A stretch of DNA of 64,000 bases, from positions 612,397 through 676,396 of the forward strand of contig JAFCMP010000534.1 in assembly GCA_017506865.1 (NCBI GenBank), given 5' to 3'. Under the pieces are notes generated by a model that saw only the letters and a program-made list of their open reading frames with translations, did not search any database and was not told the origin of the DNA. Shown here piece by piece: positions 3,401-50,257 of this stretch; the first letter of the stretch is position 1; each line of letters opens with the position of its first letter. A program made the position numbers and the translations under genes. This DNA is from Tribonema minus (Eukaryota > Sar > Xanthophyceae > Tribonematales > Tribonemataceae).

Positions 3401-4212
3401 TTGACTGTATGAGGAGGACGCTTGCGCAGAAAAGCGACGCATGCATGTCATCAGCAAGACGACCATGATAATGCTTTAGTACGGACGCTTTGCAAGGACA
3501 TCTGTGATTGTAGCAGCGGCCACGGACAACCATCAGTCGTTGGGCTCAAAGCAATGCTAGTCCTCAATAGTTTCCATGTTTGTACCACTGTCACCAGCCA
3601 ATAGCGTAATGGGGCAGGATGCACCAATTGCCCTGATCAGCAATGTTGTCACCAGCCACCAGCCAATAGCGTAATGGGGCAGGATGCACCAGTTTCCCTG
3701 ACCAGCAAGCATGCATTGCTCGTGCTGCTGCGTACCTCTGCATGTCTGAAGGTCAAAGACGTTTCATCATCCCCGTGCCGCTCCAGCCCCAGATGCTTCA
3801 GCAGAGCTGCCAGCATCAGCTTGAGCTTTGCATTGCCCACACCGTCCAGACACACTGCTTCGCCAGCATCGACCGCCTCCAGCAAAGACGCCAGCTCCGT
3901 GGGCAGTGCAGGAAAGGAGCACAGCATGGCAGTCAGCAGCTGCAGGGATTCGGGCAGCGCTGCCAGAGCATCCGCTGCAGCGGCCGCCTCTTGAGCTGCA
4001 GCGACCTTATCTCCGTCGCGAGCTGCATGATCAGGCCTCAGCCGCTTTCGACTGATGCTGATGCTGGACGAAGAAGCGCTATCGCTGGAGGAGCTCGCGC
4101 TTCGTGCATGCCTGCTGTGCTTGCGGTGGTGCTTTTTTCTATCTTTCTTGCTGTGCTTGTCCTTCTTTCGCTTCTTGCTGTCGTGCTTTTTGCTGCTGCT
4201 GCTACGACCCAT
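453..4212 (-). CDS. GPALPP-motif (DUF3752-like) Lys/Ser-rich nuclear protein, 3' end open
   Basis: Four exons join in frame on the minus strand: 4212-3736 (159 codons), 2960-2706 (85), 1813-1532 (94) and 623-453 (57). All introns are phase 0 with good donors (GTACGC, GTGAGT, GTGCGT, GTGGGC). The ATG at 4212 opens MGRSSSSKKHDSKKRKKDKH, a basic Lys/Arg/His/Ser tract of about 60 residues typical of nuclear RS-like proteins. It is followed by an Ala/Leu-rich helical region. Exon 4 carries IGPMRPPAALLEQAAQM and later SDSSDDDVGP, which I read as degenerate copies of the IGPAMP...ELLAAAAEM and GPAPP motifs of plant GPALPP/DUF3752 proteins. The Asp/Ser cluster before the second motif also fits. No stop was accepted in exon 4: an in-frame TGA lies just past the GTGGGC donor, so either the protein ends there or further exons lie below position 450. 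Family assignment is by remembered motif similarity only; the exon chain is firmer than the name. Confidence 0.62.
2176..2205 (-). repeat. Interstitial telomeric repeat, five CCCTAA units
   Basis: Five perfect CCCTAA units on the + strand, in the opposite orientation to the terminal array. They lie in intron 2 of the minus-strand GPALPP-type gene. They may be an old telomere insertion or a double-strand-break repair scar. Confidence 0.9.
3590..3710. repeat. Local tandem duplication, ~60-bp unit
   Basis: Two adjacent diverged copies share AGCCAATAGCGTAATGGGGC followed by AGGATGCACCA, starting near 3595 and 3661. The second copy reaches to just short of the exon 1 donor of the GPALPP-type gene, so the duplication lies in its first intron. 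Confidence 0.8.
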
Positions 4213-4400
4213 TGCAGAGTGCCGGATCCGGAACCCCTGCAAACGCAAACCTCGAGAGATCCTGATCGATCTTTCAAGTTCTACATTGAAGTTAAGAAAG
4301 TTGAAGTAAATTTCAAAAGGAAAAGCCATGGTGGTGGCTGCACCTCTCCGGACGCATAGCTGACTGGCGCGCAGTGGTTATTTGAAGATATTCGGCCATC
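4213..4400. promoter_or_regulatory. Shared promoter region of a divergent gene pair
   Basis: 188 bp separate the ATG of the minus-strand gene (4212) from the ATG of the plus-strand gene (4401). Both 5' UTRs and core promoters must fit here unless upstream non-coding exons exist. It holds two copies of a TTGAAGTT/TTGAAGTA motif (near 4287 and 4301) and no convincing TATA box. Co-regulation of the pair is an inference from layout only. Confidence 0.5.
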
Positions 4401-7400
4401 ATGGCGCCACGGCCTGGCAGGACGCGCTCGTCCCACCTGTGGTCATTCGTAATTTTTTTGACAGTTGTAGGCGCGGATGTGCAAGTTGCTTTGGCTGCCT
4501 CTTCCGCCTCCGGTGCACAGAAAGGAGTTGCCGAGCCTGAACTAGCAGCAAATACGGTGAGTCATCTCTCAATGTTGTCTCAGGGACCCATGGGTGGCAC
4601 GCGTACTTGTGCATCTGAAGCCACACGTGTAATCTCTGCTCTTGTAGGCTGGGCAAAAGGTGGCAGCCGGCAGTTTCAGGGCTGGTGCGGCGTTGCCAGC
4701 GGCGCCAGCAAGCACAGAAGTGAAGATGAGCGAGGTTGGCGCATATCAGGGGCCCAGCTATGTCCAAAGCATGCAAGTCATGATTACGCGAGGAATGCGC
4801 AAGACGCTCACGGACAGCCTGCATTACACAGAGGAGGAGGTGAACGACATGGAGCCTCAGATAGCAGCCATCGTGGTGAGTGAATGCTACAGATTGTAAT
4901 AAAAAGCCCTGGTTCTGACAAGTGCTTTTGCATCACCAGGCGGTGATTTTCTTGCCCAGACAAGTGACGGTTGGCGCTGATGTAGCGGTTGCTTCTAGCA
5001 GTTTCTCCTGCTTTTTCAAGTGTGCAGAGCAAATTTTTGGTTCAAAACCGTCAAGCCTGATCAATTGCTCGATCTTTTTTCAAGTGACCTGTGTTTGACG
5101 CTAATCACAACAGTGCCTGCCAACAATCAATTGGTTGCAGAGTGAATGCACACAATGTGACAGTTCACGAACCACTTTCTGCCCCATTGCAGAGGTAATA
5201 CACGGTACAAGTTGACAACCACCACTTAAAGGCAACATCCGATGCATTACTTATTGTGTGCGTGCGCAGATTGAGAAGGGCCTGCCCCGCCCTCGTGCTG
5301 GCATGCCGATAGCCTGGCGCAAGAGCTTCAGGCGCCGCGAAAGCGCTTCCAGGGGCCCTTCCAGCCGAGCGCTGGCTGCAATCAGGGGCGTGGCAGCAGG
5401 GCCGGTGGCAGTGTTCAGCAGCACAGCAGCAGTGCTCAGGCGGGTGGCGCTGCCAGTTGCAGCGGTTGCAGTTGTTGCATACGGGGTCACCTACGCTGCG
5501 CCGCTGCTGCTGCCGGCTTGGCAACGGGCGATGGATTTGTTTGCACGCGATCGACCGCACGCCACGAACGAACGCAGCAGCAGCAGCAGCACTGGTGGCG
5601 GCAGCGGCAGCAGCAGCTACTGGGGAGGGGAGACAGACCTGGGGGATGGTCGTGCTGCCAGGGGGGGGGGAAGAAAGGAGCGACACTCCAATGACCCGGA
5701 GCACAAGGTGCGCGCTGGCAACGTTGATTTTTGGGATCTGATCCGTAGCTCTGTGCTAGCATTGCTTGTGTGTTAATCAGTTCTATCGGAAAGCCAGTTG
5801 GCTGTGCGGTCATTGTATTCGGGCGTTTTCAGCAGCTAGAGTTGCCCAAAACTCGTTGAAGACTCATGGAATCAGATTGAACGTGGGACCTGCAAGTGTA
5901 TGCTCACGCATTTGCTTGCACAATTGTCAATTCACCACAACATCGGCAAAATCGAGCAACAAGGTGTAGCCTCTGCTATGCATGGTGTGCATGCCAAACT
6001 GTCGCTAACCCTCTTGACACTTGAATTGATACCTGCCGCAAAAGTAACGTTACACATGCGCTGACGTCATGGAGTTATTGGACTGCTAACCGGAACACCA
6101 GTATCAGATATGTTCAGCATCAACTTGAACCTCAGTGCTGGTGCAAGAAAATGGCATCTGCTGAACAACGGCAGCTTGGTCCCCCAGTAGCAGGCAGCAG
6201 CTGCACTGCTTTTGGTACTTGGGGTAACACAATGAGTCGGCAAGTAGTAGATTGCTGGAGATCTTGCAACAGACCACGTGCTGCTTGATGCAGAGCCACA
6301 CGATTCACTACGTAGATGCATGCGACCTATCTTCATGATGACTTTGACAATTCAAAAGATCTTGAGTATGGCACCAGGTCATTCATGCCCTTGGCGATCA
6401 TCAACAATTGAGGGTTGGGCGTGGCAGCACCGCATCTAGCCATTGCGTTGTACATGCCTGCTTTATATAATGTATGTTGGGCACTCTGCATATGCAGGGA
6501 CGGGGATCTGTTGCATCACGCAATCGCCGAAGTCAGGGCAAGAGCAACGTTCGCGACGCAGACGAGCTCATGGCATATGACGACGACGCAGCATTTGAGG
6601 GACTTCTGCAGCACCAGGTAATGAACAAGTATTGAATTCTCGCAAATTTTTGGGCATTGCACACTTTTTGGTTGGTGTCAGCCATGTCGTATCATGGTGG
6701 TGAATGGTGTCATGCAAGACAAAGGAATGGAAAAGACGGGCAGAACAACACAATGTAACCATGCCAAGTTGTAGACACACGCATTTATTGTCAGCACCCT
6801 GACCTTGACCTGAATGTCCTGCGTATGTGCATTCAAAGGCAACTTTTATGGGCCATGATTGCAGCAGCACGTTGGGCCCTTGACAGTGCTCTATGACAAG
6901 CACACTTATTTGCACCGTTGCTCAATCTGCACAAGTTGTATTGAGCAAAACGAATGAGATTTGCGTATTCATCCAGCAAAAACGTGTTGGGTGAGAGTCT
7001 GGGTGCGCTGAATGTAGGTGATCACTGTAACTTACAAAGGGCTGCATGCAACCTGGCATCCAAGTACGCTCGTCACACTTCATGTTCCCGAGTCTCCAGA
7101 CAAGTGCGACCTGCATGGGACGTCAATTATTGAAGCTACCTCGTAAAAGCAATAATAATCATTGATTGCGCACATTTGCTCGTCGTTTGTCCGTCAGGAG
7201 AAACATGGGGCTGCAGCGTCGTCGACGCTTCTAGATGACGAGTTTCCAGCGGACCTAGAGCAGCTGGAGGAGCTAGAGCAGGAGTGGGCAGCAGCGGCGT
7301 CAAAAGCGAGCTTTCGCGGCGGCAGCGGCGCCGGTAAGGCCCTGGCTGACCTGGAAGACCACTTTCAACTGGGGACCAGAGGCAACAAGCAGCAACAGAC

Positions 7401-14769: not shown

Positions 14770-15197
14770 CTGAGGCTCCAGTCCTATATAGCCACGTCCC
14801 TGCCGGTGACATCGTCAACGGGCACCCAAAATGGTACGGCATCAACCTCATCTTGGCGCACGGTGCCGTTATCAGTGCGTTGTCACTGTCTGTACCTTCA
14901 CTGCCATTAAATGGTATACCCCTGGGCTAAAGCCATTGTGTTGTACGGGCGCACAATGTGGCACTGCCCGGAAGGGCAACACGGTGATGACATGACTTTT
15001 CTTGTTTTTAAACTATTGCAATTGCCACAGGTGAGGGGCTGCCTCAATATGGTGCAATAAATCTCACTAGGCGCTGTCCGATTACTTACTTGCGTTTTCG
15101 TGGGTGCAACAATGCAGGATGCCATCTGACCACACTTTTACCATCATTTCTGCATTTTGCTGCACTGCAGGCCATGGCAGAGTGGATGCGGTGAACA

Positions 15198-15552
15198 TGA
15201 AACAAAGTTGGGGTTATATTTGTTATGTTAAGCCTGTCTTACTTGTAGATGGGGCAGCGTTGGCTTGGGCTGATCTAGAAGGGTCCATGATGGTTGATGG
15301 TTGTTGGCTTCAGTTGTCTCTATCCTGGAGCCGTGGTATCCTAGCTGACTGACAAGAACCGAGGCCTTGCAAGCACAACCCTTCATCTGGGGAGACTCAA
15401 GGGTCTCACCGGTTAAGGGGTTTTCCTGCAATGTTCCCCTAGTTCGAACCAATTGCCCTGGGCCCTAATAACGGCCGAATATAATAGAGTTGAAACATCA
15501 TAAGCCAGAAGGCTACATAAATAGTTTACTTTACATACAGCTGCCCGTGTCA
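15198..15552 (-). repeat. 3' LTR of the methyltransferase retrotransposon
   Basis: 355 bp, identical to the 5' LTR except for A instead of G at 15338. It is bounded by the 4-bp duplication AACA on its outer side and the polypurine tract on its inner side. In element orientation it starts TGACACGGGC and ends GTTTCA. Confidence 0.95.
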
Positions 15553-15553: not shown

Positions 15554-15565
15554 CTCCCCCTTCTC
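15554..15565 (-). promoter_or_regulatory. Polypurine tract (plus-strand primer)
   Basis: GAGAAGGGGGAG on the element's coding strand lies one base from the 3' LTR, the standard position of the primer for plus-strand DNA synthesis. Its intactness implies the element is still copied by some reverse transcriptase. Confidence 0.88.
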
Positions 15566-15805: not shown

Positions 15806-18800
15806 CTACCTCACATCACCATCGCTCAAATCCATGTCATCGCCACTGTATGAATCTGAACCTCCCTGACCAGACTCCTGGCCCAAGGGGACCTCTTCTG
15901 CGACCGTGGTCAGCAGTAGGTTCCAACTGGACATAGGGTCTGCCTCAGCCTGCTCGCTTGTAACTGCGGTGCTGTAGTAGTCAGGCCTCAGCCGCACGGT
16001 GATTAAACGCGTGACTGGGTGCCCGTTGTAATGCACGCGAAATGTGTACTTGCCGGCCCGGGGCAAGTATTCCTTGAGCACTGCACGGCTCCAACCAGTT
16101 GCACTTTTGACTCTCACGGTCTGACCATGGTAAGTCGCACCAAAGTCTGGTGGGATCCCAGGGCACATTTCCTGCACCACCTTGGGGCTAGAAACCGTGA
16201 CGCCCAGATCCTTTGCGCGCTGCTGAGTGGCTTCAGCCAACGCAATTGCGCATTGCAACTGCCGCTTTGTGAAGTCCTCCCAGTCACCATCTTCATAGCG
16301 CACGCGCCAGTACGGGGCGAGGTAACCAGTGATGGTTCCCCATAGGTACTTGACTTGTTGCTTAAGCGCGCCGCGCTCCTCACGCACCACCTTAGTACCT
16401 CTCGGGAATAGGGCCAGCGCAGCCTCTTTCGTGGATACGCGCCGGTCCTCCCGTGGTATCCTCGTGGCGTAGGCAGGCATGTCATTCGCATGCTTCAACT
16501 CGTAGAGCGCGTGAAAAGTATCGAGCGTCCAAGGCATGGCAACCTCGAGTGCATCGTCCTCTGTCTTCCATGTGCTCAACGTACCATCTCTGAGCAGCCA
16601 ACGGTAGTCCCACGAACCATTGGGGTTGTACCGGCGGTCTACCAGCCTCTCTAGCCAGCCATCCTTGGGCAGTTGCTTAATGTCTTCCTCATTAAGCACC
16701 GCGTAGGGGTTGTCAAGTTCCATGACACTTGGCCTTAAATGAAAAGGCTTCATGTTGGTCACATGTGCCCGCGTGCGACGCACCCGGCGCCCCATCATGC
16801 GGCATGAAAATGACAGCCCAGATCCGCCAGTTTCCTCTGCTACCACCCATGGTCCAATGAATTTAGGGTCCAGCTTCCTGGAGCGTCCCTTAGCAGGCTT
16901 CTGCTTGATCATGACCAGGTCCCCAACTTTAACCTTCATTGCGCGCTTGACCGCTTCATTAGCCTTGTCAACTCTGCGCGCCTTGATGCCATATGCCTCA
17001 TCAATAACCTTCTGTGCCATTTTGAGGTTGACGCGCTTGCGTTCAATCTCAGAATGTGAGTCGCCACCATGCACTTCATCAGGGAAGGTTTCGAACGGCA
17101 GGGACGGCTCGCGGCCATACACACAGTAGAAAGGGCTCAGGCCTGTTTCTTCTCTGGGGGTGGACCGGAGAGCGAACTGCACAGCCTCAACGCCCTCATG
17201 CCAATTCTGTTGGGTCTTGTCAACCCAGGCAGTCAGAATGGCCATGATGCGTTCATTTTGCCGTTCAGCGACCCCATTTGCCTGTGGGTGGTATGCACTT
17301 GTGTCAATTTTCATGATCCTGAAAATTGAGCACAAATCGCGCACCACAATGTTCAGAAACTCCTTGCCTTGGTCCGACACCAGCTCCTCTAACATGGATC
17401 CCATTTCTAGGATTACCTTGTACAAGAGCCTTGCAACCGTATGCATGTCCTTGTTTTTAATTGGCATGAGCCAGCAAAATCCAGAGCGTGCCTCAATTAC
17501 TGTCAGCAGCCCTATGTGCCCCTCTGAAGACACCACCGAGGTCATGGTGATGTCAGTGTGCGCTCGCTGAAACATGCGAGTTGGCAGTGTTAACATCATC
17601 TTGGCCTTGCCAGTCGTAGCCTTCTTGCGCTGTAGGCAAGACATGCAACTAGTGACATACGTGTGTACATCACTGCTGATGCGAGGCCAGTAGAAGCGCT
17701 CAAACAGGCGGACATACGTGGCGCTTGCGCCGGCGTGACCGGCCGTGGCGTCGTCATGCCCCAGCCTCAAAACCAGAGGGCGCAGCGCGGCGGGTACAAA
17801 CCATTGGCGCAGCACCATCCCGCGTTTGGGGTGGCTGGTGGCCAGATGTACCAGCAGGCCGTCCTCCTCGTGACAGTACCAGTCACGGTTCACCATTAAG
17901 TGTGCAGCCACCTGCAAGAGCTGTTGCTCAAGCTTGGTCGCAGATGCGTCCTCCAACTCAATGATATCCTCAGGCGAAGCCGGCCGTGCCTCACCAATGA
18001 AGGTGTTTCTGGCCATAAGCACCGGCTGGTCTGAGAAGTTTACCATGCGTGCGCGCACAGGGTTGTGCGCGCCAACAATATCCACCGACATGGCGGCCTT
18101 TACGCCCCTTTCTTGCAACTTCAACATCGTCTGAGACATTGCGGGTTGTATTACTGCCGAGTAGGGGCTCAGCCCTTTCACTGGTGGGTGTAATGCAACT
18201 TCAACGTTCACCTCGGTGTGCGCTGGAATGAGTATGTCATTCACCAGGCACACGGCACGATGCGCAGGGGGGGCTGGTACTTTGGGGCTAATTTTCACAG
18301 CCCCTGCGGTCTTAGCGCCTTGCCACACCGTCCCATGCGCTGCCTCGCTGCCTAGCATCTTCAACTTTGGGCCGTCCGAACCTAACGGCTGGTATGTCAA
18401 ATCCTCATAGTCAAAGAGGGTTTTGTACATGCCAAAGAAGTCACTGCCTAGAATGGTGGTGATGGCCAAGTCCACAATGTAGAACTTGTGCCGCACCAGC
18501 TTGTTACCAAACCGTAAGGTGAGGTGCAAAGCGCCTACGATCTTGACCTGTGTGCGACTGTCTGCCAGTTCTATGACTGAATGGTCCCCCTTCTCAAGAG
18601 GGCATGTCGTCCCTGGAGATAGCTCATCCGCCGTTGCTTTTGCCATGATGCCTGCCTCAGCGCCGGGGTCCAGCAATGAGACAAAGTCTCGTTCTTTGAA
18701 CCCACGTTGGTGCTGCACGCGTGCCTTCAGCCTGGCAAACCGCTGCTTGCTGGGCTGGCCACTTGGCAACACAACTGTCTCTCCCGGCCTAACCGAGGCG

Positions 18801-21800
18801 GGATCCACTTCAGCGGCTTGTGAGCGGCTCGCTTCATCGTGTAGCTTGGCAGCCACAGCGCTCACGCGAGGGTTGCCTAGCCCACGCCTGCGAGTTGCCT
18901 CATGCACCGTGTCGTCAAAGTGATGCTCGTCTTCACTGGCGTATGCACCTTGTGAGGAGCCGCTAGGGTGTGACTGCACAAGTTCCTCTTCCTCAACTTC
19001 ATCAACATCAGAGTCTGAGTCATTGCACGAGTCATTGAGCGCTGTGCAAGACCAAGGACCTGTGTTCAAACCTTCTGCACATATCATATCAGGGGTGACT
19101 GCATACTGCCAAGCACTGTATCGTGCGGTGATGGCCGCAACCCTAGCCTGCACCTTGCCTTGCTCAGTAGGAGTCTCTGCCACATGCATGTAATCTTCAG
19201 ACCCTGGCAGCATCCATTCAGGGGGGGGTGCACTAGGGTCATGGTCCAGGCGGACACCCCGGGGACAAGGGGCGCCTACTTGAAGATCAAGCATGCCAGA
19301 TCCCACAAGCCCAACGGCAATGTGAAAAGCCATGCGTGGCATGACTAAGTTTACAAGCCATAACTTCATGTCCTCAATGGTGGCCTTGCATGGCAAGTCA
19401 CGTGTAAAGGTGAGCAGGACAGCCATTTCACGCAATGACAGTACTCTTGCATTTTGCACAGGGCCAGCATCATGTTCATCATCAGCCACATAGTCAGCCA
19501 GATCCACTGGTGGTTTTCCAGGGTTCCGCCTGACCGGGCTGGGCATGCAGTCATCGGCATCATACACACTCTTGGTACCCTTCACGCGAGATTTCCAAAA
19601 GAAACAGCGCTCAGGGCAGCGAAGAACGCGCCGTACGGACATGGGTAATGATGAACGCTGAATTGCATTAATTAACGCCCCGAACCGTGCCATAGCGGTC
19701 GTGACACCAACCCCTGCCCGCGCAATCACCACATACACCCGCCGCCGGTGGCACGCTATGCTAAAATCCGACCCCTTCAGCTTGCTGACATAGAGACAGT
19801 AGCCGTGGGCCAGCAGCAAAGCCTGCGCGCGCGCCCACGCCTTGGAGCTGAGCATGGATACCACATTCTCGATGACACAGCAGCGCAGCTTCGCCCTCAC
19901 AATCAGCCGCGCCGCCATGATCGTCACCTCCGCCGCTGCCCCCTCAACGCCACTCCCGTTTGCATAATCTGTGCACGGGGGGGACATTGTGGTGAGGTCA
20001 GGATCCAGTTCAGCCAGTGCTATGGCTACTGCATCATCGCTCAGGCACGCGTTTAAAACCTTGTGGGTGCCAGGGTGCAGTTCGTGGTACGCCTCACACA
20101 CGCGGGGGCACTTGTCAACAGCAAGTTGAGTGTCCACCACAAGGCCTGCCACACTTGCCTGCTTTAAACCCTCGTCCCAGCCACCAATGCCGCAGCATAT
20201 GGAGGCGTGTGTCACATGCCGCGCTGCACCCGCCACTGGCATGCCCGCATCAGGGTCCTGTGTCACAGCGGTAGCACAGACAGGCGATTCGCTTGCATTA
20301 GGTATGGTAACCGTATGCGGCGAACCAGTGTTTGATGGGGGAGTATCGTTTGCACTATCACCTTCAAGTTGCATGTTAGCATCAGCCGTAGACTGCGACA
20401 CTTCCGCGAGGGAAGGTACGCTGGGTAACGAAGGATGCAACATAGCCAGCAATACGGCGTCATTGTGCCCAGGCGCGCGCTCACGTGGTGAGGTTGCGAT
20501 GGACGCGGAGACGCACATATCACGTTGACCAAAAGCATGTTCAAGTTCAACTGCGGCGCGCGCACCGCTGGTGCCACCCCCTGAGAGGGCCGCACGCGCG
20601 CGCGCGAGCGAAGTAGACTCACCCTGAGCCCTCTGCCAGGCCACAAAGGCCATCATCTTGTGATACTCGTCCGCCTCCGCTGGCGTTGGCGCAGCGGCAG
20701 CAGCCGCCGCTGCCACGACCGGCGCCTGCGGCATAGCAGCCGGGGGCGGAAAAGGGGGGCGAGGACCGTACCGCGTGTACTGATTCGCCTGATGCGCCGG
20801 TGGCGCTCCGCGCGGCTCACCGCGCGGCCCGCCGTACGGTGCGGCGCGGGGGCGGCGGGAAGGATCAAACGCCGGGCAGTTGGGCGTGTTGCGATGCATG
20901 TCAACGGCGATACCGCGCGGCAGCGTTGTCTGGCAGTCAAAGCATACCCAGTGAGAACGCGGGTTGAACTGCACCATGCCTGAATTGTCATGCTCAGGCG
21001 CGGGGGGCCCACGCCTGGCGGGCGCGGCTGCCGGAGCCGACTTGGCGGCTACAGCAGCAGCTCGCACCTCCAAGGCTTTCTCCTTTTTGGCGAGGCGCCT
21101 CTCCTTGTCCGCCAGCGCCCTCTCCTTGCGCGCAATCTGCGAGGCGGAGGGCGTCTGGCGCGGCGCGTCACTTGCTTGCGACGCGTCGTCGCGCAAACTC
21201 TCGCGGTCAGAACCATCCTGCGACGTGGGTCCGCCCTTGCTCGCGGCATGGGCTTTCCCGTTCCAGGTGCGCTCAATGTGCTCCTGAATGCTCGCAAGAC
21301 CAGCGTCCTGCCAGCCCCTCCCCAGTGCAACCCTAGCGGCCGTCCGCTCCTTGGATGAGATGAGGCGTAAGTAGTGAAGCTTTTCAGAAAACTCACGAGA
21401 ACTTTCGCTACCACCTGCCTGTACAACCATGTTCCGCACGCGGAGAGCCAACTCCCCAGGGCTCTCGCTCGGGAGACGCCTGGCTTGAAGTAGAGAATTG
21501 TACACCTTCTCTTGAGCAGCTTCAGAGTTGAAGTGCTCAATTATGGCTGCACAACGTTCTGCGTACGTTAGCTGCTCCCACCCCTTCCGCTTGCCGCCGA
21601 CCTCTAGGGACAGTAGGCGCACAGTTGAAAGTAAGGGTTTGTCCTTCGACGCCTTTATGGCCACACTTAGAGCGTGGACCTTGACGTCCTCTGCCATGGA
21701 GCGCAGCGCAGCGGTGAGTGAGTCAAGCCTGGTGACACATACACCTACGCGAGAAGAGAGGTCGGCTACGCCGGCAATCCTACCAGCCTTCGCATAGACG

Positions 21801-22645
21801 TCTCCCTTGCCCCTGTTAGCAGCGTCAGCGCCGTCCGCTCGGGACGGTTCACTGCCATCGTCGCTGGGGGTCGTGGTGACCCCAGTGCTCGACGGCGCAG
21901 TATGAGACATCTGAATCGAGGCCGCCACGCCAACGCGGGGCGGGGCAACCTGGACCAAACGCCCTGCCTGCAAGTGCTGCACCAGCTGCACCTTCTCGAA
22001 CGCCTTGAGACGGCGCAGTGTATCTGCATCGCCAAGATCGCGATCCATGATTGCGTCGAGTTCTATGCGAGCAGTCTCCAAAGCGCTGAATCTCTGTGAG
22101 TACGCGCAGCGGTCAACTTCTACCTGCTCCATGCTCGCCTTAAGACGTGGAAGCTGGTACGTGATCGCATAGAGGTCCGTCTTGTACATTGTACGTTCAG
22201 GGGAACCCTCCTTGCTAGCATCGTGCAGGCCACGCAACACCTTCGCCTGGGCGTCAAGGTCCTGGAAACGTTCTTGCAGCTGTACCTCGTCTGCAGACAG
22301 TCTCGCCGAGGCAGATGCCCCGGACTTGTGCGAGGCCGCCAACAGCTCGAGCAGCCGGGTATAACGGGCTCTGGATACGGTTAGACCGGCACCAGTCTCA
22401 CCCGCATCAGAGCTGGCGTCGTCACCGGCGCCAGCGCATATCTCGTCGTCGAGCTCCGCCTCTCGCTCGCTACCGCCAACGGCCGGCGCAGGAGGGGTTG
22501 CGGGCTCCTTTGACGACTTGGACTTCTTCGCGGGCTTCTCCGGCTTGTCAGCCGGTGCCGCATCAGCCTTGCCCTTACTCCCCTTTCTTTTCGTGGAGGA
22601 GTCCGAGTCTGCACATGGAACAGGATCATGTGTTGAGTCTCTCAA
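15806..22645 (-). CDS. Gag - C5-DNA methyltransferase - protease - integrase - chromodomain polyprotein
   Basis: 2,279 codons in one frame. Residues 1-100: charged, Lys/Asp-rich. About 280-470: Gag-like helical region (LPSESPGELALRVRNMV). 500-535: basic coiled segment. C568-x2-C571-x12-H584-x5-C590: a zinc finger in place of the usual CCHC knuckle. 811-1115: cytosine-C5 methyltransferase. About 1315-1425: aspartic protease with D1326-P-G and ILGSDFF. 1630-1670: HHCC zinc finger (H1630, H1637, C1667, C1670). 1698-1794: integrase DDE core with D1698, D1758 and E1794, spaced 59 and 35. 1925-1935: GPF/Y-type motif. 1997-2035: chromodomain-like. About 2080-2132: Tudor/agenet-like (WRVRYEDGDWEDF). 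No RT or RNase H lies between protease and integrase: residues 1430-1620 are the usual post-protease spacer. The first codon of the open frame is TTG with a TGA four codons upstream, and the first ATG is residue 153. Initiation is therefore non-AUG, spliced from the leader, or the N-terminus is shorter. Confidence 0.93.
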   Translation of the reverse strand: MRDSTHDPVPCADSDSSTKRKGSKGKADAAPADKPEKPAKKSKSSKEPATPPAPAVGGSEREAELDDEICAGAGDDASSDAGETGAGLTVSRARYTRLLELLAASHKSGASASARLSADEVQLQERFQDLDAQAKVLRGLHDASKEGSPERTMYKTDLYAITYQLPRLKASMEQVEVDRCAYSQRFSALETARIELDAIMDRDLGDADTLRRLKAFEKVQLVQHLQAGRLVQVAPPRVGVAASIQMSHTAPSSTGVTTTPSDDGSEPSRADGADAANRGKGDVYAKAGRIAGVADLSSRVGVCVTRLDSLTAALRSMAEDVKVHALSVAIKASKDKPLLSTVRLLSLEVGGKRKGWEQLTYAERCAAIIEHFNSEAAQEKVYNSLLQARRLPSESPGELALRVRNMVVQAGGSESSREFSEKLHYLRLISSKERTAARVALGRGWQDAGLASIQEHIERTWNGKAHAASKGGPTSQDGSDRESLRDDASQASDAPRQTPSASQIARKERALADKERRLAKKEKALEVRAAAVAAKSAPAAAPARRGPPAPEHDNSGMVQFNPRSHWVCFDCQTTLPRGIAVDMHRNTPNCPAFDPSRRPRAAPYGGPRGEPRGAPPAHQANQYTRYGPRPPFPPPAAMPQAPVVAAAAAAAAPTPAEADEYHKMMAFVAWQRAQGESTSLARARAALSGGGTSGARAAVELEHAFGQRDMCVSASIATSPRERAPGHNDAVLLAMLHPSLPSVPSLAEVSQSTADANMQLEGDSANDTPPSNTGSPHTVTIPNASESPVCATAVTQDPDAGMPVAGAARHVTHASICCGIGGWDEGLKQASVAGLVVDTQLAVDKCPRVCEAYHELHPGTHKVLNACLSDDAVAIALAELDPDLTTMSPPCTDYANGSGVEGAAAEVTIMAARLIVRAKLRCCVIENVVSMLSSKAWARAQALLLAHGYCLYVSKLKGSDFSIACHRRRVYVVIARAGVGVTTAMARFGALINAIQRSSLPMSVRRVLRCPERCFFWKSRVKGTKSVYDADDCMPSPVRRNPGKPPVDLADYVADDEHDAGPVQNARVLSLREMAVLLTFTRDLPCKATIEDMKLWLVNLVMPRMAFHIAVGLVGSGMLDLQVGAPCPRGVRLDHDPSAPPPEWMLPGSEDYMHVAETPTEQGKVQARVAAITARYSAWQYAVTPDMICAEGLNTGPWSCTALNDSCNDSDSDVDEVEEEELVQSHPSGSSQGAYASEDEHHFDDTVHEATRRRGLGNPRVSAVAAKLHDEASRSQAAEVDPASVRPGETVVLPSGQPSKQRFARLKARVQHQRGFKERDFVSLLDPGAEAGIMAKATADELSPGTTCPLEKGDHSVIELADSRTQVKIVGALHLTLRFGNKLVRHKFYIVDLAITTILGSDFFGMYKTLFDYEDLTYQPLGSDGPKLKMLGSEAAHGTVWQGAKTAGAVKISPKVPAPPAHRAVCLVNDILIPAHTEVNVEVALHPPVKGLSPYSAVIQPAMSQTMLKLQERGVKAAMSVDIVGAHNPVRARMVNFSDQPVLMARNTFIGEARPASPEDIIELEDASATKLEQQLLQVAAHLMVNRDWYCHEEDGLLVHLATSHPKRGMVLRQWFVPAALRPLVLRLGHDDATAGHAGASATYVRLFERFYWPRISSDVHTYVTSCMSCLQRKKATTGKAKMMLTLPTRMFQRAHTDITMTSVVSSEGHIGLLTVIEARSGFCWLMPIKNKDMHTVARLLYKVILEMGSMLEELVSDQGKEFLNIVVRDLCSIFRIMKIDTSAYHPQANGVAERQNERIMAILTAWVDKTQQNWHEGVEAVQFALRSTPREETGLSPFYCVYGREPSLPFETFPDEVHGGDSHSEIERKRVNLKMAQKVIDEAYGIKARRVDKANEAVKRAMKVKVGDLVMIKQKPAKGRSRKLDPKFIGPWVVAEETGGSGLSFSCRMMGRRVRRTRAHVTNMKPFHLRPSVMELDNPYAVLNEEDIKQLPKDGWLERLVDRRYNPNGSWDYRWLLRDGTLSTWKTEDDALEVAMPWTLDTFHALYELKHANDMPAYATRIPREDRRVSTKEAALALFPRGTKVVREERGALKQQVKYLWGTITGYLAPYWRVRYEDGDWEDFTKRQLQCAIALAEATQQRAKDLGVTVSSPKVVQEMCPGIPPDFGATYHGQTVRVKSATGWSRAVLKEYLPRAGKYTFRVHYNGHPVTRLITVRLRPDYYSTAVTSEQAEADPMSSWNLLLTTVAEEVPLGQESGQGGSDSYSGDDMDLSDGDVR
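16250..16657 (-). other. Chromodomain and Tudor-like tail of the polyprotein
   Basis: Residues 1997-2035 read WLERLVDRRYNPNGSWDYRW, then a Trp-Lys-Thr-Glu-Asp run. This matches the chromodomain pattern of a hydrophobic start, a YxVxW-like strand and a tWEp-like turn. Residues about 2080-2132 have a GTITGYLAPYWRVRYEDGD core resembling Tudor/agenet-type folds. In chromoviruses an integrase-fused chromodomain targets integration to marked heterochromatin. Here that would place a methyltransferase-encoding element in silent chromatin. The Tudor-like label is weaker than the chromodomain label. Confidence 0.6.
17096..17773 (-). other. Integrase zinc finger and DDE catalytic core
   Basis: Residues 1625-1850 of the polyprotein. 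The HHCC finger uses H1630/H1637/C1667/C1670. The catalytic triad is D1698 (AHTDIT), D1758 (VSDQGKEF) and E1794 (NGVAERQN), a canonical D-x59-D-x35-E arrangement. All key residues are present, so strand transfer is predicted to work. Confidence 0.92.
18371..18703 (-). other. Retroviral-type aspartic protease domain
   Basis: Residues about 1315-1425. The active-site loop reads LLDPGAEAG (D1326), with Pro where most retropepsins have Ser or Thr. The C-terminal flap-side strand ends ILGSDFFG, the conserved ILGxDFL of Gypsy proteases. It is predicted to mature the polyprotein. The Pro substitution might lower activity but also occurs in some retrotransposon proteases. Confidence 0.82.
19301..20215 (-). 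other. C5-cytosine DNA methyltransferase domain inside the retrotransposon polyprotein
   Basis: Residues 811-1115 contain the DNMT motifs in order. Motif I (SAM binding): CCGIGGWDEG, 817-826. Motif II region: LAVDKCPRVCEAYHELHPG. Motif IV: MSPPCTDYANG with catalytic C891. Motif VI: IENV at 925-928. Motif VIII: HRRRVYVV at 966-973. Motif IX: LSLREMAVLLTF, R1072/E1073. Motif X: LVNLVMPRMAFHIA. Every catalytic residue is present. The Gly of the motif X GN pair is Val. The target-recognition interval between motifs VIII and IX is only about 100 residues, as in compact bacterial and DNMT2-size enzymes, and there are no extra reader domains. The domain sits between Gag and protease and has its own expanse of low-complexity linker on both sides. 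Predicted to methylate cytosines in DNA; target site unknown. Confidence 0.93.
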
Positions 22646-23760
22646 ATATACCCCTCACCATCCAACAATAAGATATCCATCAGCCTGGGAGAACAAAAAT
22701 TATTATAGTACTCATCAAGAGAGCCTCTCTTGGAACATGGGATGTCCCTGTGCGCTCGCCCGTGCAATTAGCCAGCCCGGGACGTGCACAGAACACACCG
22801 GCACTCCCATGAGATGCATGTGGTTGCCAATCATAGCCACGCAAGTCAGTAGAACCACGGGCTCCCGCAACCGTGTCAACCGCGGCATGCTATGTCTCAA
22901 TGCATTTGATTCTAGTGCGGCAGCGGCAGAGCAGAGTTACTGTTGTTGCTGCGCAAGCACCATATGCACACCTGTTTATCGTCGTAGTTAACGCTGTTGC
23001 CTAGCTGATTGTGGCCTGCACCAATCCAACACCTCCGGTATGCAACCGTTACCTAAGTTGCTCTGGGTAGCAACTTCAAGCGAGCGTCGACGCATTCGCA
23101 AGACGAACTGTGATCATCAGCTCGATTACACCATCATCAGATGGTGCCGAGAAACAAAGGGTGGGGGGTGATGGGTAACCTCGCAAGCCCACTAATGCCC
23201 GTGCAAGTCAGTACGGGAGAACCCGTACCGCAGCTTTCGACAGTCAGCCTCATCATCTCAATTACACAGCGTTAACAGCCGACGTCATGCGAAGCAACTA
23301 CGGGTGTGTGAGCCGCTGCTAAGCATGATTCCTCCGACACAGGCACTGGAGCTAGGGCGGCTCACGCAGCATAAAAGCACTGCTGCTCAGTGTTCACTTG
23401 GTAGCGACAGCTGGCACAACCAAGCAAAGGATGCGGCATGCAGGCGCATATTTACAATGTGCATGCACACCGACCCCTGCGCTAAATTCCTCCTCGTAGC
23501 TGCCTCCAGTTAGTACGAGCGGTAACCAACACTCAGCGCGTCCGCCTCGCGAAGGGCCGATACTGAATGATTGGACGATTTCCTATTCAGTCAATTGGCC
23601 TACGTTAAGGAGCGGGAAAGCAACGTTGGCGCTCCAGAGCACGTGTTGATGAGGGCAAGCGAGGGCTAACGATACGATATTTAAGGAGCACGTGTAGCTT
23701 GGTTCGTCAGGGCCCGCCAGAGCGAAGCAAGGGGTGGGTAAGGACTGTCTGTAGGTGCCA
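22646..23760 (-). other. 5' leader of the retrotransposon
   Basis: 1.1 kb between the 5' LTR and the polyprotein. I find no long reading frame and no RT motif in any frame. A possible splice donor (GGATG followed by GTGAGG) ends near 22666, right beside the open frame, and could matter for start selection. Such a leader probably holds packaging signals. Confidence 0.6.
23743..23760 (-). promoter_or_regulatory. Putative tRNA primer-binding site
   Basis: TGGCACCTACAGACAGTC directly follows the 5' LTR on the element's coding strand. It begins with TGG, the complement of the tRNA CCA end. I cannot assign the primer tRNA. Confidence 0.6.
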
Positions 23761-24115
23761 TGAAACAAAGTTGGGGTTATATTTGTTATGTTAAGCCTGT
23801 CTTACTTGTAGATGGGGCAGCGTTGGCTTGGGCTGATCTAGAAGGGTCCATGATGGTTGATGGTTGTTGGCTTCAGTTGTCTCTATCCTGGAGCCGTGGT
23901 GTCCTAGCTGACTGACAAGAACCGAGGCCTTGCAAGCACAACCCTTCATCTGGGGAGACTCAAGGGTCTCACCGGTTAAGGGGTTTTCCTGCAATGTTCC
24001 CCTAGTTCGAACCAATTGCCCTGGGCCCTAATAACGGCCGAATATAATAGAGTTGAAACATCATAAGCCAGAAGGCTACATAAATAGTTTACTTTACATA
24101 CAGCTGCCCGTGTCA
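23761..24115 (-). repeat. 5' LTR of the methyltransferase retrotransposon
   Basis: 355 bp with one difference from the 3' LTR. It carries a TATTATATTC sequence on the element strand (about 24046-24055) that may serve as the TATA element of the U3 promoter. The flank is AACA at 24116-24119. Confidence 0.95.
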
Positions 24116-24119
24116 AACA

Positions 24120-25567
24120 TATACTTGAACGCACCTGTAGTAATGGAGATTCTTCTGTTCCAGCATCCCCCCCCAAGATACCACGGGACAAAGAAACAAA
24201 CCTTGCAGTCATGCCCGTGCACGCCTGCAGTGCCACTGCAGAGCTGGTTTTTCTGCAGAGCAGCTGAAGCCACCTTTCAAGAATGACGTGCAGGGTGCTG
24301 CAGGGCACAACTTTGAGAACGCAACAGTGGATCACAGGCAATCACACAGTCACTGATAGCGAGAAGAGCGTATTGACGCAAAGACAGTTGCTGCGTTAGA
24401 GATCTGGTCGTGTGCCACACGCAATACACTGCCATATACACATCAACCGCTTGGCATACTCACTCTCGCCTGTGGACACGACACAACCATGTGACCGAAC
24501 AGCAGCTGTGTGTGTGTGCGCTCTGCTATGCCTCATCCCCTGTGCAGTCCTTGAAGGAGTCTTTGCATGGGCCACAGAAAGTATTGATGATCATCGTACG
24601 CCCGTACGGTATGTAGCTGGCGGTGTACCTGTGGCAGGCCGAAAACAGTAGAAGCAACCCATGTAACCAGTATCTCGGGGTACAAGATCACTTGCGTCCA
24701 GAGCCGGGCTAGTAGTGTGTGCATGTATATAACAGCACAAACTGACTGAGCACACAAGCTTGATCATGGGCGTCTGCAAATGGTCATCACTTGCTACTTA
24801 GCGAGACGTGTCAACTCCATAACAACACAGATTGTGCTTCATGCCCACAAGGCGTTCTGAAGCAGCTCGACAGCTGAAGTCGTTTTGCATGCAGAGGCAC
24901 TGCGACGACACCAGTATCTTAACTAGGTGTCATACTTGAAGTTTGCGGGAGGTGTCGCAGTGCACCTCAAAAGCACAACGCTCTTTTCAGAGCGACATTG
25001 CATTGGGGATATTTCGCACCTGATAGTTCAGAAGCATGCAGATATAGTCAGACACAAGTCTTTTGCTGCTTGAGAGAGAGCACCTTTTCATGCGGCAACA
25101 GGATGTGCCCTTCTTTGTCCCGATGAAGTCATATGTACACACAACAGGCAGCACACATTGAGATATGGCATGAGCTGCAAACCTCAGCCACCGCTGCCTC
25201 CATGTGCTGCAGCATAATACCGTTATGTTTCCAGCTACATAGTCACAACGTGACAAACACTCACGCGCCCCCTGCGCCACTTCAACTGGCACTGCAGCCA
25301 CAATGTGTTGTTGCAATCAGGATCTGATGCCTGCAGGTAGCTCTGAGAACGTAGCTGACTGTCACGGATGCGCGCTGGTCAACAGCAGCGCTTTGGACAC
25401 GAAAGTCCGAATCACACGTCGTTATGCATGCTATCACTCTACACATGCCACTGTGGACCGAATTCCACTAAACCTGATCTAATCGTAGTAAGCCTATTTT
25501 TGAGTGCCATCAGTGAGGGTGACATGGTGCTAGCATCGCATCACTGTGACTTGACGCATTGACTCAC
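24120..25567. other. Stretch without a firm gene; possible SFT2 3' exon
   Basis: No recognisable coding sequence, apart from a possible terminal exon of the SFT2 gene at 25018-24987 (minus). This follows an acceptor (ACTATCAG) and encodes VRNIPNAMSL and a stop, which resembles the SYIPYAR end of SFT2 proteins. The direct join to the upstream exon is out of phase, so a tiny intervening exon would be needed. Confidence 0.35.
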
Positions 25568-26143
25568 CAGACAGCAGCGATGCACTGGATGACCAGCAGC
25601 ACCAGCACAATCGCCACAAACGCCCCCGCCACCGCCGCGATGAACACCACCAGCAGCATCACCAGATAGAAGATGGCCGCAAAGCGCCTGTTCTTGTGGA
25701 ACATTTTCTTGCAATGGCTCTTGGGGCCAATCAAAAAACCCGTCCCGGACAGCGCAATCAGGTTCCCCAGCACGTAGAGCACCGCAAAACCCCTGATGCC
25801 CGCTGGCCCCCCTCCAATCAGCAGCAGCGTGCCGACAAACGACAGTATGTAGCCCACTATCATTGTGGTCACAAAGCCGATGACCCGTTGCTGGTAAGTA
25901 AGAGTTGGGCAGCAGGCGCACATGTCATCCGCGTTGAAGCCTCCCTCATTGGCAGGTGCGGTGTTGCGAAAGCCCGGCACGGATATGTCCGGCCATCCCC
26001 CCATTCCCCCTGAGCTGGGCATTCTGCCAGTTGCACCTGCTTCCTGTTGTGACAGGAATGGGGGATTGTGTCTTGCTGTAGAACCGCTAGCACCCCCCGA
26101 CAACGTCCGATGAGCTCTGTTGGTCAATTCAATATGGCAACAC
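25568..26143 (-). CDS. SFT2-family vesicle transport membrane protein, main exon
   Basis: One long exon bounded by an acceptor (TTGTTCTCAG) and a GTGAGT donor. The N-terminal half is a Ser/Gly-rich cytosolic tail with PSSGGMGGWPDI. Then comes CPTLTYQQRVIGFVTTMIVG and four hydrophobic spans including FAVLYVLGNLIALSGTGFLI, followed by GPKSHCKKMFHKNRRFAAIF. This is the SFT2/Got1-like signature (Y-x-LGN-hhALs-tFLhGP-x-KxMF). In yeast and mammals SFT2 proteins act in Golgi-endosome vesicle fusion. The frame is open upstream without an ATG before the acceptor, so a 5' exon is missing. A donor at 26213 (GATG then GTAAGC) or 26521 could belong to it. The last ~10 residues, normally WYxLSYIPYAR, lie in a further exon. 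Confidence 0.85.
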
Positions 26144-32365: not shown

Positions 32366-33402
32366 TTATCTTGTGCGCATTCGGCCGAACCAGGGGGGTG
32401 CATGCGTAGTGCGTGCGTAGAGCCTTGGCATGGGTGGCGTGTGGGCCCTTGTGTGTGGCCGTAGTATTGTCGTTTGGTGAGCGCTGTGTCACCCTGGAAC
32501 TTCAAGTTTCCATTGTGACGGGCGCATGTGCACACACCTGAAGCAACCGCAGTGACGGTGGTCATGGGTCATGCCAACCCAGCAATGCAGGGACATGGTG
32601 GATTGCTTCCGCATAGAGTGCATGTCCGCCCCCACACCACAAAAAAACTGTGCAGGCCCGCCAGTGGGCTCCATCGCTCTGTGTGCTGTCTCGAGAGGGA
32701 TCTGTTACGGTAACTAAGACAGGTCGTTGCGTGTACTAGCGCGCAGCACAACAATGCTAAGTCCTTGCAACACGTTCAAGGTCCAATATATGTTTGCTGC
32801 ATGGTTTGCCTGTAGTCGTTGCTGCATGGTTTGCTTGTAAACACTGGTGGTAAGTCCTGGTTTGTTTGTTTTCACGGCTGGCTGGCTGGCTGCAGAGCGT
32901 TACTTTTTGCAACTCTGTGCAGTGGTGCTCTGCGCAGCACCTCAGCACTGGACGAAAAACAAACCGTTTGCTATACAAGTCCATACGTACAAGAGGTAGC
33001 ATGAGCTGTGCAAAAGCCGCCAATGCAGAGTACGTGAGGGGATGTCCACTCGGCATCATCTTGCTATAAATTATTTGCCTGTGCAATTTTGTGATATTTC
33101 AATAAAATTGGGTGGTCGTGAGTGACCTATCAGTGCTAATAAATGGCCAGGCTGTAGAGTTGTGAGCCAGGATTACAGAGAAGTTGACCAAAGCAGGACA
33201 GGACGAAGATCAAGGCTTGGTGTCTTGATGCTGAAGTGAAGTTCATGTTGGAAAGATTGGCCATCTGTTTGGTGCAACCGTCACGGGGGCTTTGGTGCCC
33301 CGTGGCAACCATGGTGGGGTTGTATCACCTCTTCATGGCTTTGCGTGCAAGTTGCTTCATGAAATGAGGGAGCTTCTTGCAGCTCTCAAGCTGGGCTCGC
33401 TT
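32366..33402. other. Intergenic, no gene seen
   Basis: Holds the likely 3' UTR of the ankyrin gene, a ~30-bp tandem duplication (GCTGCATGGTTTGC twice, near 32793 and 32820) and a 17-bp fragment of a longer repeat found elsewhere (ATACAAGTCCATACGTA at 32973-32989). Confidence 0.55.
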
Positions 33403-33412
33403 CAACTTCAAC

Positions 33413-36152
33413 GTCGGGGCGCACGGTTGACTGGCTCCTTGAGCTGCTGGCGTGGCTGGGTACCGCGGCGTACTCCACCCCCGCCGCGCCGCCCGCCCCC
33501 TTTTGGCGTCGCCACGCAGCCGCGCGCCTCAGCGCTGTGGGCGGCGACACCATCCGCCACCTGTTCGCCCGCACCTTCTGCACGGACACCCGAGACCGCG
33601 TCTCCGCGCTGCTAGAACCAATTGGGCAGTTTGAGGTCGGCGCGCGGGGGGGCGCAGAGAGGGTGGCGCTCATGGCGCAGCTCACGCATGAGTGCAGCGG
33701 CGTGCTCCTTGCCATTGACGGCAGTAACGCCTTCAACGCGCTGTCGCGCTCGGCAGTCCTCACTGCGGTGGCTGAGCATCTGCCTGGCCTGTACGTCGAG
33801 CACATCTACCTACAATTTGGCCTAGATGGGCACGCCGACGCCGCTATCATCATCTCTCAACAGGGCGTGCAGCAGGGCGACCCACTGGGGCCGCTGCTGT
33901 TCACGCTGGCACTGCGCGGCACCATGGTGGCTGCCCGCGCCAATTTCCCGCAGCTGGCGCTTCCGGGCTACCTCGATGACCTCACCATCATGACGCCCAG
34001 CTGTGACGCGCCAGTGCTCGGCTACGTTGGCCGCGCGTTCCGCTTCATACAACAGGCGCTGAGCGAGCTAAACATTCAGGTCAACGTCACGAAATGCGCG
34101 GCGCTGGTGCCGGCCTCAGGCGGCGCCCGCGAGCGCGCCGCCGCCGTCTTCGCCGCCGCCAATGTCCCCGTACCAGTATGTGACCGCGGCATCACGCTGA
34201 TGGAGGTGCCGGTCGGCACCGAGGACTTCGTGCGCGCACACGTAGCGGCGACCCTTCGTGCCCCCGGCACCGACCGCCTGGTGGCGGAGCTTGTGCAGAT
34301 GGAGGATGTGCAGGCTGCCTGCTCCATTCTGTCACAGTGCATCTTGCCGTCCCCGCCCGCGCAGGGCATGTCGCGCGCAACACGGCGCCATCCCTCACGC
34401 ACGAGGAGCTACGGCGCTTCGACGCCATCACGCTAGCGGCCGTGGTCGCGCTGGCGCAGGAGCCATCGGCGGGTCTCACGCCGCTGGCCCACAAGGGCGC
34501 GCCGGCGGCGGGTGACGATTGCCGCGGCCCGCCGGCGGTTGCGGCGGCGGCGGCGCCGCCCTCTCTGTGGGCGGCGGCAGTGGCATGGGTACGCGGCGCT
34601 GACTGGGGTGGCGAGGCCCCAGTGACGCTACCAGCACATCAGCAGGTACGCGTGCATCTACGGCTGGGGAGCGGTGGCTTTGACGTGCTGGGCGCGGCGC
34701 CCCGTGCATGTGCCGCATTTGCTGCACGTACCCTCGAGTGCATGGGACCGGCACTGGCGGCGTTTCCAGTGGCGGCACGCAGCCGCATCCTAGAGCACGC
34801 ATGCTATGGCTTCACCTTCACACAGATAGCTACCTGCCTGCAGAAGCTGCGCAGCGGCAGCGATGATGCCGCAGCGGCGCTCGCACTGCTCCTGCCCTCG
34901 GTCTGGTACCGGGACTGGCGCCAGGACGACGGCGCATGGCAGACGCTGCACGATCTGCTGCAACGGGCAGGCGGAGCCGCGGGGCTGGGCATGCGGACTC
35001 GCGTCGGCGCGCGCTGCGCTGCGCCAGCGGTGGGCGCGAGCCAGGCTCTGCCCAGACCCCGCCGGCCGCCGTGCTGCCGCGGCGTCAAGCGGCGCTATCA
35101 CGCGTGCTCGACGCAGCGCTCGCCGCCACGCAGCTGCGCCGGCTTGAAGCAGCAACTGCGTTGGAAGCAGTCGCGGCGTGGCGCAGCGGCGCCTCTAAGG
35201 GGGCCATGGGTTTCTTGGCGCAGTTGCGGAGCACTGACCCAGCAGAGACCATCATGTCGCCGCCAGAATTCCGCGCGACGCTGCGGCGCCACCTGGGTGT
35301 GGAGCGCCCCGCCCCTGCTGCGGCGCGGTGCCCCAAGTGCCATAAACCAGTGGACTCAGGCGCCCACCTGCGCCGCTGCACACAAGGGCTTAACGTCACG
35401 CAACACAACTTGCTCGCAGACGCGCTCTTTCAGCTGCTCAAGCAGGTGGCCCACCTCCGCGGTCTCGACCGGGACACCCTTGCCCCTTCCGCCGCCACGC
35501 GGCGCGCCACGGGTTCAACAAGTTCGTGGACATCTCTTCGGCAGCAACCAGGTCTGCCTTCCAGTCCCTAGAGTGCAGCCGAGCGCAGACGCGGTAGCGG
35601 CAGGCCGGTGCACTAAACTGCGCGGCGGCTTTGAAGTAGCTTGTTGCATAGACGTCACCATACGTGACAGCTCATGCCCCTCCCGCCTCCGTCAGGCTCA
35701 GGGGGACGCGCGCGATGTGCAGCGTGTGCTTGAATCGGCTTTGCAGGAAAAGATAGACACACACGTAGTCTCAGGGGCCCTGGACCCCACTACACACGCC
35801 CTATTTTCCGCAGCCTTTGACCACTTCGGCGGTATGTCACGCGACACCCAAGCGCTGCTACACGCACTCGCAGAGCAGAGCTCGCAGGGCAGCTACAACC
35901 TCGCGCAGCACGTTGCCTTCTGGCGCCGCCGCACCTCCCTCGCGCTGTCGCTCACACGTGTCGTGATCGACAACTGGAACGCAGTCATGCCCCTGATGGC
36001 GACGTCAGCGCTTACCGCCGCATCGCACTGTTGCAACTTGAAGTGCCGCGGCCCTCGCCAGCCAGCGCATAACCGCCGGCCCCTCCGTAGATTTAGTTAT
36101 TGCAAGCCCGATTTATCGTGTGCTAAGCCCATGCGGTCCAGGACATAATGTA
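33413..36152 (+). mobile_element. 5'-truncated, inactive copy of the AACTTC-targeting LINE
   Basis: About 2.7 kb closely similar to the 3' part of the full-length element at 47.6-54.5 kb. It starts inside ORF2 at the residue equivalent to about 483. It keeps the RT motifs (IDGSNAFN, QQGVQQGDPLGPLLF, YLDD) but has lost eight codons around KARPIA, a few codons after LPGLY, and frame at about 34330. The RT part (33537-34436) and the C-terminal part (34337-36148) therefore read in different frames. It is flanked by a 10-bp direct repeat, CAACTTCAAC, at 33403-33412 and 36153-36162, the target-site duplication. The 5' truncation plus target duplication is classic target-primed reverse transcription. 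Confidence 0.9.
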
Positions 36153-47592: not shown

Positions 47593-47751
47593 GACCGTGG
47601 TGCAGGGGTGGATTTTGCTGGCGCCACGTTGGTGACTCCCACCCTGTGTGCCTGCTGTTCAGCCAACGCTCGGCACCCTCCACGAGGGGCAGCCGCCACC
47701 GTGTCCCAGGGGCGGGGCAGGGCCCGCCCCATTTCAACTTCAAGTCGTTTC

Positions 47752-49989: not shown

Positions 49990-49999
49990 GCAGCCCCCC

Positions 50000-50224
50000 A
50001 TGCCTGCCAGTGACAGCAGCGCGCTTATGTCCGACAGTGGCACACCCCGCGCCAGCCGCAAGCGCACGGCTGCTGAGCGCACGCCGGGCTCGGCGGCGGA
50101 ACCCCCCGCTGCACGCCCCGCGCGCGGGCTGCCCCAAGGTCAGTCCGCCGCCGACCGCTTCCTCTCCACCTCGACGGCCCAGCCGCCGGCACCGGAGGGC
50201 GGCGGCGCCGCCTCGGGCCTGTAA
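50000..50224 (+). CDS. Small ORF between LINE ORF1 and ORF2
   Basis: ATG 11 bp after the ORF1 stop; 74 codons (MPASDSSALMSDSGTPRASR ... GGGAASGL). Ser/Pro/Ala-rich and basic, ending 33 bp before the ORF2 ATG. It may be translated by reinitiation or be the true N-terminus of ORF2 separated by a frame change. There is no domain. Confidence 0.4.
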   Translation: MPASDSSALMSDSGTPRASRKRTAAERTPGSAAEPPAARPARGLPQGQSAADRFLSTSTAQPPAPEGGGAASGL

Positions 50225-50257
50225 GCCGCCGGTGCGGCGCTCCCCTCATCCACCGTA

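Follow-up and report, generated by a model that had tools for sequence, protein, structure and literature searches.

DNA methylation is usually a weapon of the host against transposons; in the systems discussed here, the enzyme is carried by the retrotransposons themselves. Retrotransposons bearing a DNA methyltransferase (DNMT) were described by de Mendoza et al. 2018 (PMC5890265) and are cited in PMC6338049 and PMC12344493. KnitGypsy-Dnmt3, from the charophyte Klebsormidium nitens, encodes a DNMT3-related enzyme within its Pol ORF and has repeats arranged as in DIRS elements (PMC5890265). The SymbioDIRS-Dnmt3 and SymbioLINE-Dnmt elements of Symbiodinium are of DIRS (tyrosine recombinase) and LINE type rather than LTR/Gypsy, and carry either a DNMT3 or a Symbiodinium-specific enzyme (PMC5890265). 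The original prediction for the present locus had invoked DNMT-bearing LTR elements from dinoflagellates and a charophyte as precedent; the charophyte element is indeed a Gypsy, while the dinoflagellate ones are LINE and DIRS elements (PMC5890265). When the isolated domains were assayed in yeast, two from SymbioDIRS-Dnmt3 carried out de novo CG methylation. Those from SymbioLINE and the Klebsormidium Gypsy were inactive, an outcome that the authors regarded as inconclusive, human DNMT3B having failed too (PMC5890265). A further relevant system is Gypsy-10_Ec32 of Ectocarpus, a Tudor-bearing Gypsy with a homolog in Tribonema minus; Ectocarpus is said to be without cytosine methylation (PMC12477816).

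The window, i.e. the whole analysed stretch of 64,000 nucleotides, comes from T. minus, a yellow-green alga and stramenopile (PMC10538959), and the chlorophyte host that had been proposed gives way to a xanthophyte. It contains an insertion of 8918 bp that represents a recent LTR retrotransposon copy, with LTRs of 355 bp each that start with TG, end with CA and differ by one mismatch when aligned. The features of the element are as follows, in window coordinates and from its 5′ to its 3′ side:

24116-24119, no strand: target-site duplication TGTT, element's 5′ side
23761-24115, minus strand: 5′ LTR, 355 bp (TGACAC...TTTCA), from the LTR-LTR alignment with 1 mismatch, boundaries from the flanks
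23745-23760, minus strand: putative primer-binding site TGGCACCTACAGACAG, adjoining the 5′ LTR, assigned by position and leading TGG
15806-22645, minus strand: polyprotein frame, 2279 aa from TTG, Gag-DNMT-PR-(RT/RNaseH deleted)-INT-Tudor-like
20876-20944, minus strand: Gag-side zinc-finger-like motif C-x2-C-x12-H-x5-C, residues 568-590, by pattern match
19301-20215, minus strand: C5-cytosine methyltransferase domain (predicted), residues 811-1115, catalytic Cys891
18416-18718, minus strand: retropepsin-like protease, about residues 1310-1410, D-P-G-A active site, ILG at 1398, by pattern match
17903-17913, minus strand: junction of the in-frame 2466-bp deletion, the 8-bp TGGCTGCA bordering both sides of the lost stretch
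17306-17797, minus strand: integrase, H2C2 zinc-binding residues 1617-1675 and rve core 1689-1780, by Pfam
16253-16351, minus strand: Tudor-like stretch, residues 2099-2131, by Pfam, below cut-off
15554-15565, minus strand: putative polypurine tract GAGAAGGGGGAG, adjoining the 3′ LTR, assigned by position and make-up
15198-15552, minus strand: 3′ LTR, 355 bp, by alignment with the 5′ LTR
15194-15197, no strand: target-site duplication TGTT, element's 3′ side

The stretch upstream of the DNMT is called Gag by position; the part of the polyprotein N-terminal to the DNMT gives zero Pfam matches at E≤0.05. The protease has sub-threshold matches to Pfam gag-asp_proteas in L015 and L018, with E values of 0.043 and 2e-4, respectively. 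Its active site near 18670 (residue 1326) reads D-P-G-A in the family A and B rows looked at; the usual form in proteases of this kind is D-[S/T]-G-A. At the C-terminal end, the Tudor-like stretch scores 25.7 bits against PF21743 (cut-off 27.2), and a single-sequence structure model reaches a pLDDT of only 36.5. The window element has the direct LTRs and short target-site duplication of Ty3/Gypsy elements, and the order PR-RT-RNaseH-INT is found in the C121 copy (PR by motif), which was read as two adjacent pieces, L009 (DNMT, RT, RNaseH) and L029 (INT). The window element is one young Ty3/Gypsy LTR retrotransposon copy of T. minus.

The absence of RT had been put forward as a trait of the element. 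It is a trait of this copy: both RT and RNase H are present in an intact copy, whereas 2466 bp are missing in frame from the window copy, and an RT-less type of element is thereby ruled out. Relative to the C121 copy, the missing stretch lies between sequences sharing the 8-bp TGGCTGCA; the match end points are 2456 bases apart and overlap by 11 positions, giving 2466 bp, or 822 codons (3104 minus 2282). The frame of 3104 codons occurs in eight of at least 31 full-length family-A rows, and the deletion junction is absent from all 10 further copies of family A that were compared, each place being counted once. RT (RVT_1, E 1.5e-29) and RNase H are encoded in the lost part, integrase in the piece downstream of it. 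The complete element thus reads Gag-DNMT-PR-RT-RNaseH-INT; the window copy derives from it by deletion and, lacking RT and RNase H, would need help in trans.

Near the element lies a Got1/Sft2-like gene (window 25567-26127). A (TTAGGG)n telomere repeat closes the contig at about 63530-64000 of the window, so the element sits about 40 kb from the chromosome end. Two GC-rich regions (0.58-0.78 per kb) with long frames, at window 33363-36148 and 47458-54304 (+), each contain one frame with RVT_1 as its sole Pfam match and further frames with zero Pfam matches; they look like subtelomeric non-LTR elements.

The central claim of the original prediction, a cytosine-C5 methyltransferase inside an LTR retrotransposon polyprotein between Gag and protease, is borne out by profile, fold and architecture. 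The profile search it had asked for matches Pfam DNA_methylase to residues 814-978 (E 6.1e-12), and the domain contains both the motif IV catalytic Cys and the motif VI ENV. Fold searches aligned model residues 1-305, including the small domain and motif X. From sequence and model, the domain is predicted to be a complete C5-cytosine methyltransferase. Like bacterial M.HaeIII and M.HhaI and eukaryotic DNMT2 and DNMT1, it has the whole catalytic fold with motifs I-X in order; unlike them it is embedded in a retroelement polyprotein, and its identity to them is only 13-22% in the fold-search rows.

The closest matches of the domain bear on its substrate. A profile search of the PDB places DNMT2/TRDMT1 on top (4h0n 9.8e-10, 6fdf 5.3e-9), and the first Foldseek row is S. 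pombe Dnmt2. As DNMT2 is a tRNA enzyme, and a Gag-linked enzyme would encounter RNA first, the domain could be an RNA m5C methyltransferase that acts, while the particle is packaged, on the RNA of the element or on the primer tRNA. The VIA fold ranking points the other way, with M.HaeIII (27.4) and M.HhaI (26.1) placed over Dnmt2 (24.9), as does a 32-row tree, in which the enzymes of the transposable elements (TE) stand apart from the DNMT2 clade: three DNMT2 rows, the host's own L040 included, form their own branch (100/99). Moreover, the CpG transition excess described below indicates methylated DNA, though not by which enzyme. An RNA substrate is thus quite improbable.

The same tree (217 columns, long branches, a single DNMT3 row and a single DNMT1 row; built without DNMT4, DNMT5, DNMT6 and CMT) sets all 16 TE-type rows, 13 of them seen beside an RT and the other three being L035, L036 and L039, apart across a branch (97/93) from the bacterial enzymes, DNMT1, DNMT2, DNMT3A and two short host enzymes. 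It likewise separates the element enzymes from DNMT3, although the AU test does not reject a clade of 12 core TE rows plus DNMT3A (p 0.083). Of the 58 PDB sequences with E≤1, none is a DNMT3 chain, though the library contains 29 DNMT3A/B/C sequences; DNMT3 chains are also absent among the 50 rows listed by either fold search, where absence excludes nothing. DNMT3 is missing in most stramenopiles, diatoms excepted (PMC9998398).

Among long proteins in the protein database (0.55-1.75 times query length), none of 5535 candidates was related at E≤0.001, and a search of viral contigs gave 27 pattern matches, 0 of them confirmed. Relatives of the domain were found in the JGI proteins P0001-P0004, with identities of 62-82% at a query coverage of 51-68% (P0005 is Tribonema minus), so the family probably occurs outside the T. 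minus genome too.

Within the genome (158 Mb, 554 contigs), a search with the domain gave 437 candidates, of which 129 rows were scored and 119 of these were stop-free in the matched stretch. At least 31 full-length rows, the window's included, are 98-100% identical. Together with a search by PF00145, in which 123 of 378 candidate places were scored, this amounts to at least 203 separate DNMT places, spread over 146 contigs. Four of these, L030-L032 and the DNMT2 L040, appear to stand alone; the surrounding element was checked for part of the other places. An assembly artefact, or the accidental joining of a host DNMT to an element, has a negligible probability and is already refuted by this repeated occurrence: there are 129 scored rows, one order and spacing recurs on many contigs, LTRs and a target duplication are present, and relatives exist in other assemblies (P0001-P0004).

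The stand-alone L030 (79-1248), L031 (99-1199) and L032 (121-1227) are single-frame C5-MTases of 367-390 aa, two of them nearly identical; L030 and L031 fall outside the element-enzyme group in the tree. They are possibly viral insertions.

Linkage to the retroelement was also traced from the other side, with an RT query from the intact copy. It yielded 538 candidates, of which 144 were scored as relatives, at 54-100% identity, and at least 111 of the 144 have a DNMT upstream on the same strand, with 2058-3312 bp between match starts. The proportion is at least 32/34 at ≥97% identity, 12/16 at 89-96, 6/8 at 73-79, 16/23 at 66-71, 36/49 at 60-65 and 9/14 at 54-55. Four of the 33 RT relatives without a listed DNMT were fetched as candidates for DNMT-free elements, and each contained DNMT sequence (two full, two truncated). 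Across nine families, which follow our own sorting on identity, DNMT and RT protein distances correlate with r 0.81, a value matched by 1 of 5000 permutations. The upstream DNMT across RT identity classes and the correlated distances fit a single capture followed by joint descent, and show that the predicted enzyme travelled with RT during most of the clade's diversification.

A second Gypsy lineage (C340, C550), with an RT 28% identical to that of the first, also carries a DNMT, related to that of the first. An open frame of 6208 codons at G000:C311 covers DNMT and RT matches (3913-7269) and perhaps represents head-to-tail or nested copies. More tentatively, and with the balance somewhat against it, this Gypsy clade may be regularly armed with an independently captured C5-MTase unlike DNMT1, DNMT2 and DNMT3, shared with the second lineage and accompanied by a Tudor-like reader; RT identities as low as 54% would attest to the age of the clade. 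If this were true, the element would combine an epigenetic writer with a Tudor-like histone reader, setting the chromatin state at each insertion.

General inactivation at Cys891 or the ENV motif, the outcome that had been named as fatal to the idea, is not seen. The Cys is present in 30/30 full domains and ENV in 29/30, with ENL in 1/30, a count that covers relatives of families A, D, E, H and I, leaves out two truncated domains and has the second lineage outside it. There are 0 stops in these 30 domains, and the catalytic Cys is retained down to about 35% identity. By the Nei-Gojobori method, the dN/dS of the DNMT is 0.13 and 0.11 for A-B, 0.16 for B-B2, 0.15 for the D pair and 0.16-0.19 for two E pairs, and 0.14-0.46 in deeper pairs (dS under 2). 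The H pair reaches 0.85 with few changes, and the family C pairs have few DNMT changes, all non-synonymous (dN 0.006-0.012, dS 0). For RT the ratios are 0.02-0.04 in A-B and B-B and 0.10-0.13 in B-E and C-E, where dS is large. The DNMT ratio is above that of RT in A-B, B-B and the deeper pairs for which both are defined (RT dS being large), and below it in the close D pair (0.15 vs 0.23).

These differences might be read as the mark of a passenger, inert or structural, that was acquired in a single event and retained through its location in the polyprotein alone. Such a passenger would account for the higher DNMT ratio in deeper pairs, for the close C and H pairs without clear constraint and for the altered residue before the catalytic Cys in some families. 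The loss that it would lead one to expect is not observed, since Cys together with ENV or ENL is kept in 30/30 full domains to about 35% identity, and we regard it as very doubtful. The substitution patterns show, at the level of sequence, selective maintenance of the DNMT inside the Gag-Pol frame.

The residue preceding the catalytic Cys is mostly Pro, with Ser in families I and K and Leu in copy L020. In L034, L044 and L047 (families I and K) the active site reads SSC or PSC in a DNMT domain that is otherwise intact.

The copies also bear a trace of methylation. In 11 copies of family A (3800 columns, 38 variable), singleton transitions are found at 8/562 CpG positions vs 4/1675 other C/G positions (p 0.003). 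Pooling one pair each from families C, D, E and H gives a transition rate of 0.0208 at CpG vs 0.0103 at other C/G positions (p 7e-6), with the direction of change not polarised and the E pair contributing one difference. Thus the copies were probably CpG-methylated in the past. The host's own enzymes could have caused this excess, and the counts come from DNMT-bearing elements only, with no DNMT-free one to set against them. Nor is the element more depleted in CpG than its surroundings, its observed/expected ratio being 0.83 vs 0.69-0.74 in three flanks and 0.81 in the window minus the element.

Raised CpG transitions in genomic copies would also be expected if the enzyme acted in trans on the genome, silencing other copies or competing elements as a form of self-limitation or warfare. 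With at least 203 DNMT places, four apparently stand-alone, there is much that would profit from damping, and slowed retrotransposition has been raised as a possibility (PMC5890265). Family A, on the other hand, has been recently active (at least 31 full-length domain rows at 98-100% identity), a silencer present in every competitor would bring little individual gain, and the location in Gag-Pol before PR would suit particle-borne action. Silencing in trans is therefore unlikely, if still worth considering.

Methylation of the element's own cDNA ranks as the likeliest role in this analysis. LTR-retrotransposon biology provides the basis for particle packaging and in-particle release. The DNMT would be translated within Gag-Pol and packaged in the virus-like particle; its position upstream of PR suggests that the enzyme is carried into the particle and freed there by the protease. 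The nearest DNA for such an enzyme would be the cDNA of the element itself, whose cytosines, most likely in CpG context, could be methylated before or at integration. A fresh insertion would then resemble methylated host DNA, and the host maintenance system would copy the marks. This might protect the premethylated insertion from responses to unmethylated foreign DNA, or reduce damage to the host. DNMT5, HELLS and a CDCA7-like protein have been reported in T. minus (PMC10538959), so the host could perpetuate the marks on methylated cDNA once it has integrated. Self-methylation has already been proposed for the Symbiodinium DIRS elements (PMC5890265). The complete reading, a T. minus Gypsy element with a maintained DNMT in its Gag-Pol that methylates its own new cDNA, is given about an even chance on the sequence evidence.

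Comparison with the described systems sets this element somewhat apart. Among the titles listed by searches of the open-access literature (subscription papers and preprints lay outside it), none reports retrotransposons with a DNMT from Tribonema. The Tribonema element may belong to the same lineage as the Tudor-bearing T. minus Gypsy. The Gypsy-10_Ec32 lineage has a C-terminal Tudor and the window element a sub-threshold C-terminal Tudor match; a C5-MTase goes unmentioned for that lineage, and 'dnmt' is absent from the main text of its description (PMC12477816). With KnitGypsy-Dnmt3 the Tribonema element shares an algal Gypsy-type polyprotein and a C5-MTase under purifying selection, and with the Symbiodinium elements the abundance of the enzyme, hundreds of DNMTs being carried by retrotransposons in that genus (PMC5890265). 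It differs from KnitGypsy-Dnmt3 in its stramenopile host, in having the enzyme between Gag and PR, in its ordinary LTRs and in an enzyme that does not retrieve DNMT3. Host group, Gag-DNMT-PR order, ordinary LTRs and the apparent distance from DNMT3 are thus what would be new relative to the known cases, and the Tribonema capture looks separate from those of dinoflagellates and charophytes. T. minus, with its reported DNMT5, HELLS and CDCA7-like protein, and Ectocarpus make a natural pair for testing whether elements of this kind rely on a methylated genome or contribute to its upkeep. As a further lineage after dinoflagellates and charophytes, with the enzyme retained over long diversification at many places of a single genome, Tribonema suggests that self-methylation is a recurrent strategy of retrotransposons and not an oddity.
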